Assembly (NCBI GenBank): GCA_027596075.1
Contig: JADGJC010000158.1
Span: 1 to 64,000 of the forward strand
From: Rhizophlyctis rosea
Lineage: Eukaryota > Chytridiomycota > Chytridiomycetes > Rhizophlyctidales > Rhizophlyctidaceae
DNA: 64,000 bases
Direction: 5' to 3'
Shown piece by piece: positions 9,076-33,185 of the stretch. A program made the translations under genes and the position numbers. Numbering within the stretch: position 1 is the stretch's first letter; every line of letters begins with the position of its first letter. Below the pieces are notes generated by a model that searched no databases, was not told where the DNA came from, and worked only from the letters and a program-made list of their open reading frames with translations.

Positions 9076-9960
9076 TTATTTTAGCTTGGCAACACGCCTA
9101 CTAATGCTGCATGGTGTCCTCTTCAATGCACGGCTCATTTCAGCTTGAGAAGCTCCCTTCTGACTCAATTCCTCCAAGATGGCGTCTTCCGCAACCGTCC
9201 AGGGACCTTTGATGAGTGTTGGATTCAACACACGCTCCCAATACATCCAGACTTGTTGTGAACTTCTTCCTGCCCTAAATGCCACCTGATTCCAATCAAC
9301 ACGCCACCCAGTTTGTGAGGGTCGTCTACCTCTTCTTGAACCAGGTCATCTTCCCAGGGTAACCACTTCTTCCCAATTTTCCTGGTCGGATTCAGAATAT
9401 GCGAGCACTTATTCTACCAGAACCCCCGCATAAAATCAAACTCAGCCTACGCCAGTCCGGATGTCGTTGTTCGGTCGCTGCCTCCAAGCCTTCATGCCTG
9501 ACTATTGCATCTTCGTCGGAGGTCCAATTTCCAAATTTCAAGTTGGGAGCTAATACGTTCTGCCATCGCTCTCTGACGGCATCACCTCGCCGTCCCAACT
9601 GTCCCAGCGGAGTGAACACCTTGGTCCACGGCAACTTTGCTACCGCCTGCCCCAATTCCGACATCCTTTCCACTATGTACCGATCTTCTTGCTCAGTAAA
9701 ATACCCCTTCCGAAAAACGACCACCGTGCACACACTGAACCATACGATCTACCCAGCCTTCTGGCAAGCTTCCGAAACTGTGGACTGCGGCCCTCCGCCT
9801 TAGCCATTTGCACTTCCTTGCAAATTTCTTCACCTTCGTCCAGGAGATATTTGCCCGTTTTGAGAATGGGGATGGTGAGCTCGAAAGGGACATTGGTCGG
9901 GAGGGTCCGGAGCAAGGGTTACTGGTTTTCGAACCAGTGGAGCGGCACGCGGGTAGGACG
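9076..9960 (-). pseudogene. Broken multi-repeat Myb/SANT DNA-binding protein
   Basis: Read right to left, the minus strand shows successive Myb-type repeats in three frames. These are: EGEEICKEV...FRKLARRLGRSYGSVCARW; YFTEQEDRYIVERM...GRRGDAVRERWQNVLAP; FGNWTSDEDAIVRH...DWRRLSLIL; ILNPTRKIGKKWLPWEDDL; and WNQVAFRAGRSSQQVWMYW followed by IKGPWTVAEDAILEELSQKG. The frame changes at an A5/T5 run (9714-9718), again near 9400-9405 where several residues of a repeat are missing, and again near 9320-9330. An in-frame TAA lies near 9916. The segments are too close for introns. The gene is most likely a decayed Myb transcription factor; a cluster of sequencing errors is the alternative. Confidence 0.65.
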
Positions 9961-22192: not shown

Positions 22193-25100
22193 ATGTCGTC
22201 GTCTTCAGAGCTGCAGCCTTACTATTTCCACACATTGCTCGAGGCATATAACCGCAATGTCATCACTCATGTCACCAGCAAGAGCGCCAGATCCCTAATC
22301 TTAGCCTGCCTTACCAAACAGTTCGTGGGAAACCAGCCCCCAGTGCCCTTGTCGACCGAGACAGCTGAAGATGGAGAAGTTGACGACCCTATTCCAAAAG
22401 CGAAAGCTGTCATGGTCCTGCCAAACGACTCTCGAATGATCCTCGCTACGGTTTCTGAGCTCGGATCCAAAACCGACTTTCAAATCGGACAATATGCATT
22501 GACACCCCGTTCACCTTGGACCCTGGAATCTTGGCGGCTGGAGATCGCTACCAAACATGTACTGGTTTTCTCATGGGACATGTTCGCGCTCGTTCTCTGC
22601 GAAGGCCTTTTGTCACTATCCGAAGATGTCGGGTCACTGATGTTCGACCAGATAAGCGAAAACACTCCCAAAAAGGTGCATCAAGAGTTACTGACAAGAC
22701 TGTACACCACCTTGCCGCAACACCAACGACCCCGCATATTCGCATCAACCGCTGATCCCATCGTCGACCACACCTCTGCAATGCTCACGTACTGGCAAAC
22801 TCATCTCACGTGCATCATCGCAAAGACACATCCGCCTGCAACATCCCCAAAGCAGTCCATAGTCGAATACAGCCAGGAACCGCCCGAGCAAGGGCACACC
22901 GTATGCGAAACTTACTACAACCACTACTACCAAGCTCTCGAAGATCAGTCATCTGAAGACACTGACGTCGAAGACAGCGATACCACCTTGCAGGAGATCA
23001 CCCAGTTGAAAGCGGAGCTGGGCACTTGGTGTGCCGGAAGGGCCGCAGAACACATATACACTGATACCATCAAAACGGGAACAAAAAGGAGACGATCATC
23101 AGACGCCTCCCTACCATCCCCAAAGCGCACAAAGCAACAATCTTCACCACCGCCATCTTCCTATTCTAAGCCACTCCACGCGCGTACACCGCCCATGTCG
23201 GAAGTCACCGCCATCGATTTGACACCCAAGGTGCTGACGTTACTCCGCGTTTTGGAGGAGAGGTCGAAGAGCTGGAAGAAGGATCGGAGTGAGCGGTCAG
23301 CGCGGGTGGTCATTTTGGTTGAGAAGGGGATGAGGGGTAGGGTTTTGGCCGAGTTGATCAATAATGTTGCGCCGGCTAGGTTTCCGGTTGTGAGGGCGGC
23401 GTTTCGGGGTGGGACGAGGATGGCGGGGTCGGGTTTGGACAGGAGGAGCGATAATACTAATGTGTCTCTCTTGTCAGTTGACGAAATGGGTCAATGGTAA
23501 GTGATTGATGTGATTGATTTCGGACACTTATCTGCAACGGATTTTAAAGTCCTGCTCCTCCCATCCAGTCCGCCCAGCGACGTCGCCATAATTTTTGACA
23601 TTCCACAGCCCACAACCGAAACGCTCAGCATCCACTTACCCAAAAACGTCCGGGAACGCATCATACTCGTCGGCAGAGGCGACCTGTCCGCCCTACAGCT
23701 CTTGGCCCATGCTGCCGTAGAAGAGATGGAGCGATCCACATCTTCTTCATCTTCGGCCTCCATTTCAACAGACACCGCCCTCCACTACATACAAAACTCT
23801 TTGGACGACGCGATCGCCGACGTCCTGATGGACTCTGCTAACACCCACATCGTATCCCGCACGGGAGCAACGTTGGTGCCCTCCAAAGCACCCGGTGTGC
23901 TGGGGAAGTATTTTGCGAGTGTTTATGGAGAGGGAACGACAGTGGACTATAAGACGGTCGTCGCGCCCGGTGCTGCAAACGGGGACAGGGCATGGCACGA
24001 GTACACTCTCGGACGCAAACGCCAAACGGGTACACTCGATCGCGCCAATGTGAAGATCGAAAAATCACACGCGGAGGCGATAGACGAGATCGAGAAGCGG
24101 AAAGGGTTTGGTGTGGGGTATGCGATGAAGGTTTTGTTACCTGGTGTGGGCAGTTATTTGGCGACGGAGGTGTATGGGGGTGTGAGGGCTAGTGAGCGGT
24201 TGGCGAGGGAGGATGTGGCGTTTGAGTGTTGTCGGTGGTTGAGGAGGGTTGGGGCTTTGGATGATCGGTTTGTGAGTTGTGCGGGGGTTAGGGAGGGGGG
24301 TGATGGTACGGGTGTTGGGCAGACGGTTATTCAGCAGCGTTTGAGTAATTGGAAGAGTCGGAGTCGTGGGGGTGGTGGTGGTGGGGGGGAGGGANNNNNN
24401 NNNNGCTTTGGGTGGGGGTGGATCTCCGGGTGGTGGTCACTCGTTTAAGCCTCCTGTTTTTCCCTACGTGCACCCGTCGCCGCGGGGGGGGGGTGGTTGT
24501 GGGGGGCGCGGGCGGCAAGCATGGTGGTGTGGGGGTTGGGGATGTGGTGGTGGGGGGTGGGGAAAGGATGTTGATGGATGAGAGTTTGAGGGAGTATCGG
24601 AGGAGGATTCCTGGGGTATTTTGGGATGATGAGTCTTGGGGAGGGTTGAGGCCTGATGGGTTTGTTATTGCGAAATCGAATCGGGCTGCTATTGCTGATG
24701 GTAGTATTGATCAGGAAGACGAAATGCCATCCTCATCAGCACCTATCCCACCGGCCATCACCCTGCCCGCCCACGTAAAGCTATACGTAACCCTCCTATC
24801 CTTCGGCCCCCAACTCGAAGTCTTTACCCGTGCGAACGACCCACCCATCGCCACTCCGCGCTCCCTGCTCCACCCGCCATACTTCCCAACCCCACCCTCA
24901 CCCTACACAAACCACTACTACCACTACCCAAACCCGAACTCCTACGGACTCGGTGCCGGGGAACCGCGACGGACCTTCGCGGTTCTGACTACAAAGCCGG
25001 TGCCAGCAAGGGAGATTGAAGGGTTCTTTGTGTGGCTTGGAATGGCGGGGGCTTGTAGGGTTGAGGTGTTGAGTTGGAATGGGGAGGAGAAGAAGGGGAG

Positions 25101-28100
25101 GGGGTTCCGGAGGAGTAGACGACGGGCTGGTGGAGTGGTGGGGTTGGAAGATGAGGAGGACGATGAGGATGAGGATGAGGAAAGGGGGGTTAGGGTTAAG
25201 AAGGAGGGAGGGGGCGAGGAGGAGTATAGGCCGGTACTGTTTGAGAGGGCAGAGGTTGAGATGATCAGGAAGTTTCAGAGTCGGTGGTGGGGGATGGTGT
25301 TGAGGAAGCCGCCTTGGGGTGGGGAGGTTTTGACTGCTAAGGCAGCTTTGGAGAAGGAGGAGGGTGGTGGTGGGGATGGTGGGGATGCGTCTACGGCGGA
25401 AGAGAAGAAGGAGGCGGCGGGTGCGAAGAGTGCCAGTAAATCCGCTTCATCGTCATCAGAGTTATACGAACCGGATCCGTCGATGTACCTCCTCGCACCC
25501 ATGCTCGGCCGTCCCTGTCCACCACGACGCAAAAACCGAACGGTGAATGGCGGTCGGGACCCGGCGTTGGATTATTCTTCTTCGGTTCCGAAGTTGAAGG
25601 TTTGTAATAAGCGGGTTCCGGGGGAACGGGACGTTCCTGCTCCGCCTCGATGTACGTGGGATATCGATTGGAACCTCGTCAAGGCCGTGTTGGAAGGGCC
25701 CGAAGTCTCCTTGTACGATTTCGTGAGGGGTTTGGGCGATGTTTGTGCGCAGTTGGTTGAGAAGGCTGGGGGGTTGGTTGGGGCCAGCGGTGGGGAGGGT
25801 GATCTTTTGGGTGGTGGGGTGTTTGAGGATGATGGTGGCGACGGTGGGGGCAGTAGTGATGAGTTTGAGAGGATGTTTGAAGGGACTGATGATGATGGGT
25901 ATAGTTTGAGGGAGAGGAGTGTGAGTGTGGAGGAGTATTCGGAGGATGAGGATGGGAATCTTGTTAGAGTTAAGGTTGAGGAGAGTGAAAGTGAGAGTGA
26001 GGAGGAGGAGGTTGTTGCAGAGGGGGTTGTGAAGATGGAGGTTGAGGGTGAGGGGGGGAGGGGTGATGGTGGTGGTGGGGAGCCGTCGTTTGATGTGTTG
26101 TTGAGGTTGGTTGCGGAACGGTGTGCGGTCGGGAATGGCGGGTCGGAAGATCAATCGTCCGACCCCGACGCTTCAGCAAATGACAAAACAACCACTTACT
26201 CACCCCAAATCCTTGCAAAAATCGCTGAAGTACTCCAACAATGCGTCGCAACCACCCCGCACAACCACGCAAAATACATGATGCACTGCCTGATACCGGA
26301 CAAGACGCCAGAAGACGAGATGGGGATCAAGCGGTTCAAAGAGAAATACACTTTCCGCCGGTATGTGGAGAAACTCGGATACGTCGTCCCGCATGCGAAC
26401 AGCTGTCTCGTCGAAGCGCACTTGACGGGCAGTGTACGGAATTACCTAAAGCCTTTGCGGAGCGGTGGTGGTGATACCGCCGCGAGTGGGACGATCAAAG
26501 CTAAAAGCAAACGAGCGGAGCAGAAAAGCCATAAAGTCCTCCTCGTCCCCGATGCCTGCAAAATCCTCCCCCTGCCCGCCGAACTCCTCCGCCTATCACT
26601 CATCCTCCCCTCAATCCTCCACAAACTCAGCAACCTCTGTCTCGTAGACGACTATCGCCGTTCCCTCTCCATTCCCAACGTCACAACATCGACGCTTTAC
26701 GGAGCGTTTTGCGCGCCTTCGGCGTACGAGATGGTGAATTACGAACGGTTGGAGACGCTTGGAGATAGTTTTTTGAAGTTTGCGGTTAGTTGGGATTTGT
26801 TTCGGCGGTTTCCGGGTGGGAGTGAAGGGTTTTTGAGTGGGCGGAGGGGGAGGGTGGTGAGTAATTGGTTTTTGTGGAGGGTTGCGAGGAGGGTTGGGTG
26901 TGGGGGTTTGATGGTTGTTACGCCTTTTGATGCTAGGGGGTGGGTTCCTGTTGGCAGTGTTCCGCTCAAGGGTAGTGGTGGTGGAGGGGGGAAGGACGGG
27001 GAAGATGGGGAGGAAGAGGGGGAGAGGAGGTTAGTTAGTTCTCGGGGGGTTATGTGGAGGAAAATTAGTAGGAAGATGATGGCGGATTGGGTTGAGGCTG
27101 TTGTTGGGGCTTATTATGTTGATGGGGGGCATGGCGCTTGTTTGAGGGTTTTGGGGAGGTTTGGGTTGGTTAGTGAGGGGATGGTTGGGGATGGGGGTGG
27201 GGGTGGGGTTGGGGTTGATGTGCATGTTGGGGATCGGACGGGGGATTTGGGTGAGGAGGGGATTGGGGAAGAGGAAGAGGAGGAGGAGGAGGAGGAGGGT
27301 ATAAAGGAGGACGAGGAGATGGAGGAAGGCGAAGTGAGTCAGGATGAAGATGATGCTAAGAGGGAGAGAGAGACGATCGTGTTTGGGAGGAATTTGACGC
27401 TCCCGTCGAATTTTGCGTTCGACTTTGAAGGGATTGAAGCGATTCTAAAGTATCGGTTCCGTAATCGAGCTTATCTATTAGAAGCCTTCACGCACCAATC
27501 CTACGACCGACCCCTGACACCCTGCTACCAACGCCTCGAATTCCTCGGCGACGCCATCTTGGATTGGGTCATCACCCGTCTCTTTTACAACTCCTACCCA
27601 GACCTCGCACCAGGAGCCCTCACCGACCTGCGCCAAGCGGCCGTCAACAACGAATCCTACTCCCGCATGACAGTCCTTCTAAACCTCCACCCACACCTCC
27701 TACACTCCTCCTCCGCCCTCGGGAAGGAGATAGGCGAATACGTCACGTATATCAAACGCACGGGGGACGCCTTACATCCGACGGATACTAAACATGAAGG
27801 ACCGAAGGTTTTGGGAGATTTGTGGGAGAGTGTTGTAGGGAGTGTGTTTGTTGATTCGGGGGGTGATTTGGTGTGGATGTGGAGGGTTGTTAAGCCGTTG
27901 ATGATGGGGTTTTTGGATGTGCATGCTCGGCCGGAAGTTGCGGGACGGAGTCCGATCAGGAAGTTTCATGAGTGGTTTCAGAAGTTGGGGTTTGCGGTTA
28001 ATGATGTTGGGTATAGGTGGGTTTTTTTTTTGTTTATCTTTTTTGGGAAGGTCTCCTTCTGAGGAGGGTGATGTCGATGGGCTTCATCAACTCCTTTGAA

Positions 28101-29487: not shown

Positions 29488-30881
29488 TCACAATTCATTT
29501 CCAATCGTAACCCAAAAGTCTCTCAAATTGTTCTTCCTCCCGAAAATCTCTAGATACTTTCCTGAAATCCAAATAAAATAGTCAACACTATTGCAAATAC
29601 GCACGAGGGGCGTAAAAAATGGATCAAAAAGCCAACACTCACCATTCGGTACCAATTCCTCGATCATCTCATACAATTCCTCGGGCTTCTGACTCTGACC
29701 TCTCCGTTCCGAAAAGATAACGTCACTTCCAATGCCTTTCTTACATCCAGGCGGATCTGTGCCTTTCCGACCAACGAGACATGTTTCTTTTGCGTGTTGG
29801 AGGTAGTATCCGTGGCCTTTGGCCATGCGCCGGTTTACGGTTTGTTTGACCCATGTTATGTCATCCACGTAGCTGTGATTTACGTTCGAAAGTGTTCATT
29901 TGATGGAGAAAAGACGCGGGTCATGATGGTGACAAGGACTTGGACTTACGTATAACCCCACTTCTCCATCAATTCGAATGCTTTGGCGTATTTGTTATTG
30001 ATGACCCATATGAAGATAAAGCCGTTTGTTTGGAGCTTTTCTATTGGCAGACGCTCGATGAGGAGATCGGGAAGTTGCTGGTATCCAATTGCGACCTGTA
30101 AGAGTACAACATTACAGCGATGAGTTGTACTATGGTGCGAGTAAACAATCGTCCGGTGTAGGTGTGCGATACGAACCCCGCGAGTTGGTGCAGAAGAAGC
30201 CAGTTGCCATGGTGGGTCCATCGAAATGACATCAAACTGGCACGTGGCAGCGAGTTCCTAGTGTCACATATGTTCATTAGCGATGCTGTGGATTACATAC
30301 AAACAATTTGATCTAATACTCACATCCCATTCGAAATCTAGAACATTGGCTTTGATGGGTACGCACCACTCTGGTGCTTCGAATTCCTCGTAGTTGATGT
30401 CTATTGTTTACAAACAAACTGGTCATGCCAATGACTGGCTGATCATTATTGCCCATGACAACATACCCTCTTCTCCATCGTTATCACCGTTCGAGCCATT
30501 GATTTGTTCCTCAAGGGTCTTGATCTCATCCAACAGTAAATCGATCCTATTCTGAAGTTCTGCTTCCCGCGCTTCAAGCTCCTCTGTTGTGGCCCTCTTG
30601 ACGTCAAAAGCTTCAGTTTCAGGAGAGGGGCTATCGGGTGGGGTACTATCATCGGAAGGTATGGGAGACGAGACGCTGCTGCGGTCAATAGCTAGGGATG
30701 ACTTTTTGCTGCGGGAATTGGCTGACGATTTTCGCAGGGGTGGTCGTTTGGCTTTGGTCTTTTTGCGGCTGGAAAAGGGCTTCGACGGTGCTCCATTGTC
30801 TGCGGAATCAACGTAGTCAGACTCTGCGTTTGAAGAGGGCGTTGGGGGTGTGTCGGTGTCTGTGCCAGCAAGCATTTTCAC
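29488..30881 (-). CDS. MT-A70 family adenine methyltransferase, MTA1-like
   Basis: The start is ATG 30881 and the stop is at 29488, with five or so exons. The N-terminal third is Ser/Pro-rich with a basic patch (RKKTKAKRPPLRKS) and a short coiled coil (TEELEAREAELQNRIDLLLD). The catalytic domain follows: EAPEWCVPIKANVLDFEWD, the DPPW motif in FDVISMDPPWQLASSAPTRG, GFIFIWVINNKYAKAFELME, DDITWVKQTVNRRMAKGHGY, LQHAKETCLVGRKG, and a C-terminus KYLEIFGRKNNLRDFWVTIG-NEL. The PWQLASSAPTRGV stretch, the lack of CCCH zinc fingers and the end straight after GNEL fit the MTA1 clade (DNA N6-adenine methylation in ciliates and early-diverging fungi) better than METTL3/IME4. RNA m6A activity is the alternative. 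Confidence 0.8.
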
Positions 30882-31504: not shown

Positions 31505-33113
31505 CTACAAGCACTGAGAGTACCAGTTGTTGGAGAACTTGCAGGTGGAACCGGATTGGCAGCAAGTGGGGCCTGAAAGCAAGGATTTCAATAATACTTC
31601 AACGAAAACAGCTAATTGTACTGGGCCTATAACTCACCGGTGAATCCCTGACCACCACACTGTCCGTATTTAGCAGAGCACGAACCGCCGTTGTTGGTAG
31701 CGGTGGTGGTAGTGTGGACAGTGGTGCCGCCATTCTGAGTGGTGGAGCCCCCGGCGGTGGTAGTGGGGGTACTTCCGCCAGCCGTGTATCCCAGAGCAGA
31801 GTAGATACCCGTAAGAGCGGGCTTAGGGTTGTAGTTAGAATCCCAGGGCAACGCAGCACCTTGACCGGAGAAAGTGCTGGGAATCCAGGAGGAGCCGTCC
31901 TCGTAACCCCAGGTCTCAATGCCGACGCAGTTGGAAACTTGCAAGCAGGCACTAACAACTGAGTAGTAGTCAGTCTTTTGTTGCGCCAAGTTGGAGGAGG
32001 AAGCGGGGGTGTTCATGCGGATGTCGAGTTCGGTGATGGCAACTTGGATGCCGGAGATGGAGGCGAGCTTTTGCATGTTGGAGAGGAAGGAGGAGGCAGG
32101 GACTTGGCCTACAATCAAGTGAGACTCAAGACCAATACCGTCAATGGGGACGCCTTGGGATTTGAGGGAGTTGACACTGGGCGTGGTCAAAATAAGTGTC
32201 AATTTGAAATCAAATATCCCATCCACTATAGATGAACAAACTTACAGGTTGTACATGGCGGTGGATTTCGCGCCGGGGAACTCGATGTTGTAGTCGTTGC
32301 TGTATCAGATTTATCAATAAAACTAACGCGTGATGGCTCAAATGGGAGCAAAGCATACATACATGTAAAGCTTGGCATTGGGGTCGGCCTGGTGGGCAGC
32401 GTTCAACGCGATGTTGAAGTAGTTCTGACCCAAAACCCTGTAGAAGACAGAAGAGCGGAAGGTACCGTCTTCATTGAAGGGCTAGCATGGTATGATTTAG
32501 AGACAGTGATTGAAAGCATTATGACGACACGATCGCGCAAATGAGGAATCTTTATGACAATAAGACGCATACCTCGTTGACGACATCCCAGTGAAGACAT
32601 TTGCCCTTGTACCGGCCGACCACCGCAGCGATGTGCTCTTGGATGGCCGCAGTGAGAGTGGACGCAGTCCACGAACCGTTCTCAACCCAGGAAGGAAGCT
32701 GAGAGTGCCAGACCTATTTTGACGTTGTGTAAGTTATTTTTTGAAAGATAACCCTTTCGCGATGTAAACAAATCGCTATCCCCACATTCCTCATTTACAT
32801 ATCTCACCGCTCAACTCACCAAGTTGTGGCAACGCAACTTCATGTTGTTGTTCTGCGCAAACGACACGATAGCATCGGCAGGGGACCAGTTGAATTGACC
32901 CCTGTTGGGCTCAATGGGACCCCACTTCATGGCATTGCCGGGAGTGGTCAAGTCAAACTGCTGGGCATCGAAGGCGGTGTACTTGCTGTTGGAGAGGTCA
33001 CCGTTGTCGATGGCGGCGCCAAAGTACCTGCCCTTGGCCTCTGCGAGACTCTTAAGAGAAGGTTGCGCGGTAACGCCTGCAATAGCGGCGAAGGCGAGGG
33101 CAATGTACTTCAT
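31505..33113 (-). CDS. Secreted GH10 endo-1,4-beta-xylanase with C-terminal CBM1
   Basis: The start is ATG 33113 (signal peptide [17 protein letters not shown]) and the stop is TAG 31505-31507; about six exons. The GH10 barrel shows [33 protein letters not shown], the acid/base Glu in [15 protein letters not shown], and the nucleophile Glu in [13 protein letters not shown]; later landmarks are [15 protein letters not shown] and [17 protein letters not shown] Thr/Ser/Gly linker leads to a CBM1 ([32 protein letters not shown]) whose aromatic residues and four cysteines are intact. The enzyme cuts internal xylan bonds outside the cell, held near cellulose by the CBM1. This is typical of plant-matter-degrading fungi. 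Confidence 0.92.
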
Positions 33114-33185
33114 TTTGGGCGCGGAGGAAAAATACAAAATGGAAGATGACTTGATCGAACACTCAATGTAGAAGGAAGTTCATTC

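Follow-up and report, generated by a model that had tools for sequence, protein, structure and literature searches.

A gene, referred to here as MTA1, lies on the minus strand at 30875..29488 of the window (the whole 64-kb stretch of Rhizophlyctis rosea DNA that was analysed). According to a gene model built from the sequence alone, it consists of six exons separated by five GT..AG introns and encodes a protein of 338 aa. The initial annotation had placed an MTA1-type adenine methyltransferase at 29488..30881; the gene and its end at 29488 were right, but the start has to be shifted, since the start codon is the first ATG, located at 30873-30875, and position 30881 corresponds to a GTG 6 bases upstream. 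All features described in the following are on the minus strand. Exon 1 (30467..30875), in which the reading frame is open throughout, carries the ATG, a basic NLS-like patch read from the translation at approximately residues 35-60 (30696..30773), and an N-terminal helix rich in leucine and glutamate at approximately residues 98-127 (30495..30584). The helix was assigned by aligning the protein to its Tetrahymena counterpart and to 20 homologues from fungi, where it falls on the p1/p2-binding helix of Tetrahymena MTA1. A basic patch and a helix had both been predicted for the N-terminus, and both exist in the translation. The methyltransferase domain begins in exon 2 (30324..30400), where Asn is found at the SAM-adenine position (Asp182 in Tetrahymena). 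Exon 3 (30177..30257) encodes the catalytic motif DPPW (residues 176-179, 30207..30218; identified by translation and alignment), and here the residues matching the p2-contact loop 196-201 of Tetrahymena are missing. After exon 4 (29950..30095), which was defined by splicing, exon 5 (29643..29872) contributes the MTA9 interface loop with YLQH and the SAM-binding Ser and Lys. Finally, exon 6 (29488..29561) contains FGRKNN and a Lys at a p2-contact position (Arg358 in Tetrahymena), and the protein terminates with GNEL, directly followed by the stop codon TGA, which ends at 29488. As had been proposed, DPPW is read within FDVISMDPPWQLASSAPTRG, which is present once the exons are spliced, and the protein ends after GNEL. 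The Pfam MT-A70 match of the protein (E 2e-37) scores 129.2 bits, where the cut-off is 23.9, and is thus not due to chance.

The gene adjoins a Dicer-like gene (23501-28062, plus strand) with Dicer dimerisation and RNase III domains. GH10 exons are located at 31627-33137 (minus strand), and their C-terminal stretch YGQCGGQGFTG presumably resembles a cellulose-binding module. Of the 802 homologues of the MTA1 protein, none of the best 120 bears an R. rosea name, which suggests that the deposited annotation either lacks the gene or contains a poor model of it. For the MTA9 protein described below, by comparison, the two top-ranking matches are deposited R. rosea proteins.

When compared to PDB, the predicted protein has its best match in Tetrahymena MTA1 (E 3e-74, 253.5 bits), followed by METTL3 as the next-best family (E 2.8e-35, 125.4 bits), METTL14 (E 1.4e-14, 57.3 bits) and MTA9 (E 3.3e-7, 33.1 bits). 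In a tree of 26 rows (22 for MTA1, two each for METTL3 and METTL14, and none for the long-branched MTA9 and METTL4), the split between METTL3/14 and MTA1 is supported with 100/99, the fungal MTA1 proteins group with 99/99, and R. rosea MTA1 is found beside Entophlyctis (97/90). In two trees with MTA9 rows, one of which also includes METTL4, no branch separates MTA1 from all other rows; the bootstrap for such a branch is 2% in the first tree and 0% in the second, with 200 replicates each. The MTA9 and METTL4 rows show very long branches, and every other family stays whole. We attribute the loss of the MTA1 split upon addition of these rows to the points at which the long branches attach, an interpretation that the data do not prove. 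Since both trees containing MTA9 suffer from long branches, our placement rests on the 26-row tree.

A Pfam search of the genome yielded eight exon matches corresponding to four MT-A70 loci, and a fifth locus, C321, was found with the R. rosea MTA1 protein as query (E 6.7e-9). Besides MTA1, the genome harbours METTL3 (C502, PDB match to METTL3 with 2.7e-98), METTL14 (C34, PDB match to METTL14 with 2e-89) and METTL4 (C367, 1.7e-42 to 7cv6, labelled Methyltransferase-like protein 2). The locus C321 encodes an orthologue of MTA9/AMT6-7 with DPPL instead of DPPW. Its best PDB matches are chain B of the MTA1-complex entry 8xyl (2.3e-22) and the chains named MTA9/AMT7 (2.1e-18), with MTA1 (2.8e-17), METTL3 (1.5e-8) and METTL14 (1e-4) ranking lower. 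The protein groups with fungal and Tetrahymena MTA9 in the first of the two trees with MTA9 rows (100/100) and retains the ELRHQR stretch of ciliate MTA9. It is 94% identical over the whole query to the R. rosea protein HDV00_007601, and the MTA9 of Spizellomyces punctatus, which belongs to another chytrid order than R. rosea, shares 65% identity with it over 84%.

Fungal P1 is termed Myb-like in the review PMC13297926. Our search for p1 proceeded from 148 matches to PF00249 (Myb) in the genome at E <=1, of which 50 were inspected and 15 compared to PDB. An initial piece at C94:21384-21509 matched Tetrahymena p1 with 8.4e-14, and the spliced protein of 215 aa matched it with E 2.8e-35 over residues 13-194 (182 residues), including the C-terminal helix region. 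With this p1 orthologue as genome query, its own locus was the sole match at E <=10. Only K46 is retained in the alignment with Tetrahymena p1 out of the three lysines K44, K46 and K47, the joint charge reversal of which lowered activity in Tetrahymena according to PMC9852454. An indirect test for p2, the comparison of 15 of the 148 Myb matches to PDB, did not reveal it, the best E-value to a p2 chain being 0.32, at the p1 piece. Thus, out of the partners suggested for a genome search, MTA9 (C321) and p1 (C94) were found and p2 was not found by this indirect test. Homeodomain proteins as a source of p1 were dropped, since comparison of 4 out of 23 homeodomain matches to PDB gave no p1 chain among the matches listed (in one case the best 60 of 127). 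PF02384 (MetB-type) gave no match in the genome, while 13 of 14 control genomes were positive.

Myb-like domains are abundant in R. rosea: many of the 148 PF00249 matches are in tandem on C624 (e.g. C624:72871-90251), and one is located inside the window (9551-9709, minus strand). Related TALE-like homeodomain exons with a YPTEAEKDQLC-like motif are present at C471:160933-165837 (three exons), C400, C112:46821 and C540. At C614:21500-27000, a homeodomain exon is followed by a region reading like a TFIIS N-terminal domain, an arrangement which we take to be reminiscent of plant LUMINIDEPENDENS.

For the comparison of individual residues, R. rosea MTA1 and Tetrahymena MTA1 were aligned with two sets of homologues, chosen by likeness to the one and to the other protein. 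The first set comprises the best 120 of 802 homologues nearest to R. rosea (106 with fungal names, one coded, P0007, and 13 without organism name), and the second the best 120 of 740 nearest to Tetrahymena (mostly without names, those named being ciliates, thraustochytrids and a foraminiferan). At 11 of the 12 SAM positions R. rosea MTA1 is identical to the Tetrahymena protein, the exception being Asn instead of Asp182. Asp209 of DPPW is present in 119/120 rows of the R. rosea-nearest set and in 120/120 rows of the Tetrahymena-nearest set. The homologue P0053 of Rhizopus stolonifer has NPPW for DPPW; this protein may lack activity, represent a second copy or reflect an error in the sequence. 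All five MTA9-contact positions are identical to Tetrahymena and nearly invariant across both sets. The p1-contact positions 139, 142, 146, 150 and 153 are occupied by L, R, L, I and L in R. rosea; large hydrophobic residues are found at positions 139, 146, 150 and 153 in 120, 111, 117 and 118 of the 120 R. rosea-nearest rows, respectively, but not at position 142.

In Tetrahymena, the N-terminal helix of MTA1 binds p1 and p2 (PMC9852454, PMC9174199), MTA1 needs p2 for SAM binding, and p2 opens the SAM pocket via Arg358, the exchange R358A abolishing SAM binding (PMC9174199). Position 358 is Arg in 116/120 Tetrahymena-nearest and Lys in 119/120 R. rosea-nearest rows, position 195 is Gln in 104/120 and Cys in 98/120, respectively, and the loop 196-201 is a gap in 120/120 R. 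rosea-nearest rows, although such differences are exaggerated by choosing the sets by likeness to each reference. The suggestion that the N-terminus could recruit partners of the MTA9/p1/p2 type is supported for p1, given the aligned helix and four hydrophobic residues at five contacts, but not for p2, whose contact residues are changed and which was not found in the indirect test. Replacement of Asp182 by Ala abolishes the activity of Tetrahymena MTA1 (PMC9174199). This position is Asp in 101/120 Tetrahymena-nearest and Asn in 110/120 R. rosea-nearest rows. However, eight R. rosea-nearest rows, named Gigaspora, Rhizophagus, Glomus or Entrophospora, have Asp182, and 13/120 Tetrahymena-nearest rows have Asn182, so that not all of these fungi carry Asn182, and it may also occur outside them.

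Based on the intact DPPW, the nearly intact SAM site, the placement as MTA1 and the presence of orthologues of MTA9 and p1 in this genome, we suggest that the product of the gene is very probably MTA1 (AMT1), the catalytic subunit of a eukaryotic complex that methylates DNA at N6 of adenine. The gene itself is unsurprising, since the fungal MTA1 pathway was already described: in PMC11258239 and in the review PMC13297926, MTA1, MTA9 and p1 are reported for early-diverging fungi, with Mucor lacking p2. Deletion of mta1 or p1 in Mucor led to the loss of all symmetric 6mA, and growth was restored by wild-type mta1 but not by the APPW variant (PMC11258239). By comparison with the structures from ciliates and the genetic data from Mucor, MTA1 of R. 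rosea would use its conserved interface loop to pair with an MTA9 devoid of catalytic activity, and its N-terminal helix would grip the Myb protein p1. The complex, which probably operates without p2, would then act in the vicinity of transcribed genes, methylating adenine in ApT on each of the two strands. By analogy 6mA is likely to be present in R. rosea, a literature search for which returned no 6mA report; the levels vary among chytrids. Against this explanation stand the mostly low 6mA of chytrids, p2 not having been found in the indirect test, Asn182, the retention of one of three p1 lysines, and the two trees with MTA9 rows, in which the MTA1 split is lost.

The alternative that deserves most attention is that R. 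rosea has an MTA1 orthologue which is idle or shows very weak activity, so that, like many chytrids, the organism would contain hardly any 6mA or none. Most measured Chytridiomycota have less than 0.3% 6mA, although some exceed 1% (PMC11258239), and the outcome of the indirect test for p2 as well as the changes Asp182 to Asn and Arg358 to Lys would be in line with an idle or weak enzyme. On the other hand, DPPW and 11 of 12 SAM positions are unchanged, and the genome has kept both MTA9 and p1. Further, Asn182 and Lys358 are shared by the Mucor homologues P0054, P0074 and P0078, and Mucor Mta1 is functional (PMC11258239), although none of the three is by name the Mucor species of that study. 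In addition, the close homologues of R. rosea MTA1 (best 120 of 802) include Fimicolochytrium, Powellomyces and Phlyctochytrium, the first two of which are genera named among the chytrids with more than 1% 6mA (PMC11258239). Taken together, we regard an idle MTA1 as rather unlikely.

Much less probable still is that the gene encodes the METTL3/IME4 mRNA m6A methyltransferase of R. rosea. It has DPPW and the MT-A70 fold in common with METTL3, which is the next-best family in PDB (2.8e-35), and many homologues among the matches listed are labelled 'mRNA m(6)A methyltransferase' in databases. Yet MTA1 is ahead by approximately 128 bits in the PDB scores, the true METTL3 (2.7e-98) and METTL14 (2e-89) are encoded at C502 and C34, respectively, and a grouping of R. 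rosea MTA1 with METTL3 was rejected in the 26-row tree (p-AU 0.022). A METTL3 identity was rejected on these grounds, and the MTA1-type assignment of the initial annotation is supported by the PDB scores, the 100/99 split and the p-AU value. The annotation had further argued that the protein ends after GNEL without the CCCH fingers of METTL3. The fingers of METTL3 precede its methyltransferase domain instead of following it, and the METTL3 locus at C502 has a cysteine-rich stretch upstream of its DPPW. Nevertheless, the absence of a finger stands, since residues 1-148 of R. rosea MTA1 are free of cysteine, the first Cys being residue 149. Finally, that the gene is a contaminant or laterally acquired and does not belong to the genome's own system, as might be considered for an assembly of 634 contigs, is hardly credible in view of its GT..AG introns, its position between the Dicer-like gene and the GH10 exons, its closest kin, which are chytrids, and the MTA9 of the same assembly, which matches a deposited R. 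rosea protein.

Accepting MTA1 as the probable catalytic subunit of a 6mA writer, the absence of the loop 196-201 from all 120 and of Arg358 from 119 of the R. rosea-nearest rows, together with conserved catalytic residues, conserved contacts to MTA9 and mostly conserved contacts to p1, suggests that the fungal complex may do without p2. Three of the four p2 side-chain contacts are diverged, as compared to 42 of 202 columns (p 0.029, uncorrected, for one of five contact sets); when main-chain contacts are included, four of eight are diverged (p 0.06). The corresponding values are 1/12 for SAM, 0/5 for MTA9 and 1/3 for DNA. The enrichment of divergence at p2 contacts is thus weak, and several of the nine fixed differences in the 202 columns have no known link to p2. 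For these two reasons we offer the following as a hypothesis and not as a result: early-diverging fungi may have a three-subunit MTA1-MTA9-p1 complex, which has shed the p2-docking surface, has adjusted the SAM-adenine contact, and binds SAM and methylates DNA independently of p2. We consider this tentative idea quite possible, while leaning slightly against it. In a literature search covering paper listings and text passages, no paper on changes of the p2 site in fungi was found. The pattern at the p2 contacts turns the printed remark that Mucor is without p2 into a testable idea of complex simplification in fungi. At the same time, the gene predicts a 6mA methylome in a cellulose-degrading chytrid whose genome gave no match to MetB-type proteins.

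With respect to known systems, R. rosea MTA1 resembles METTL3/IME4 in the MT-A70 fold and DPPW, but METTL3 is a separate gene at C502 in R. rosea. The AMT1 pathway of Spizellomyces punctatus is similar in that it belongs to a chytrid, which was chosen for its high 6mA (PMC12695648); there, 6mA is measured, whereas for R. rosea it is predicted. Mucor Mta1 and the Mta1-Mta9-P1 complex of Rhizopus microsporus are alike in representing an early-diverging fungal MTA1 together with MTA9 and p1, while R. rosea is a chytrid without a PF02384 match, and most 6mA sites in Mucor are of the asymmetric type made by MetB (PMC11258239, PMC13297926). In comparison to Tetrahymena MTA1 (MTA1c; PDB 7yi8, 8xyl, 7f4l), the R. 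rosea protein is without equivalents of residues 196-201, and Arg358, Gln195 and Asp182 are replaced by Lys, Cys and Asn, respectively, but it shares the domain, DPPW, 11 of 12 SAM positions, the MTA9 loop and the aligned p1-gripping helix.
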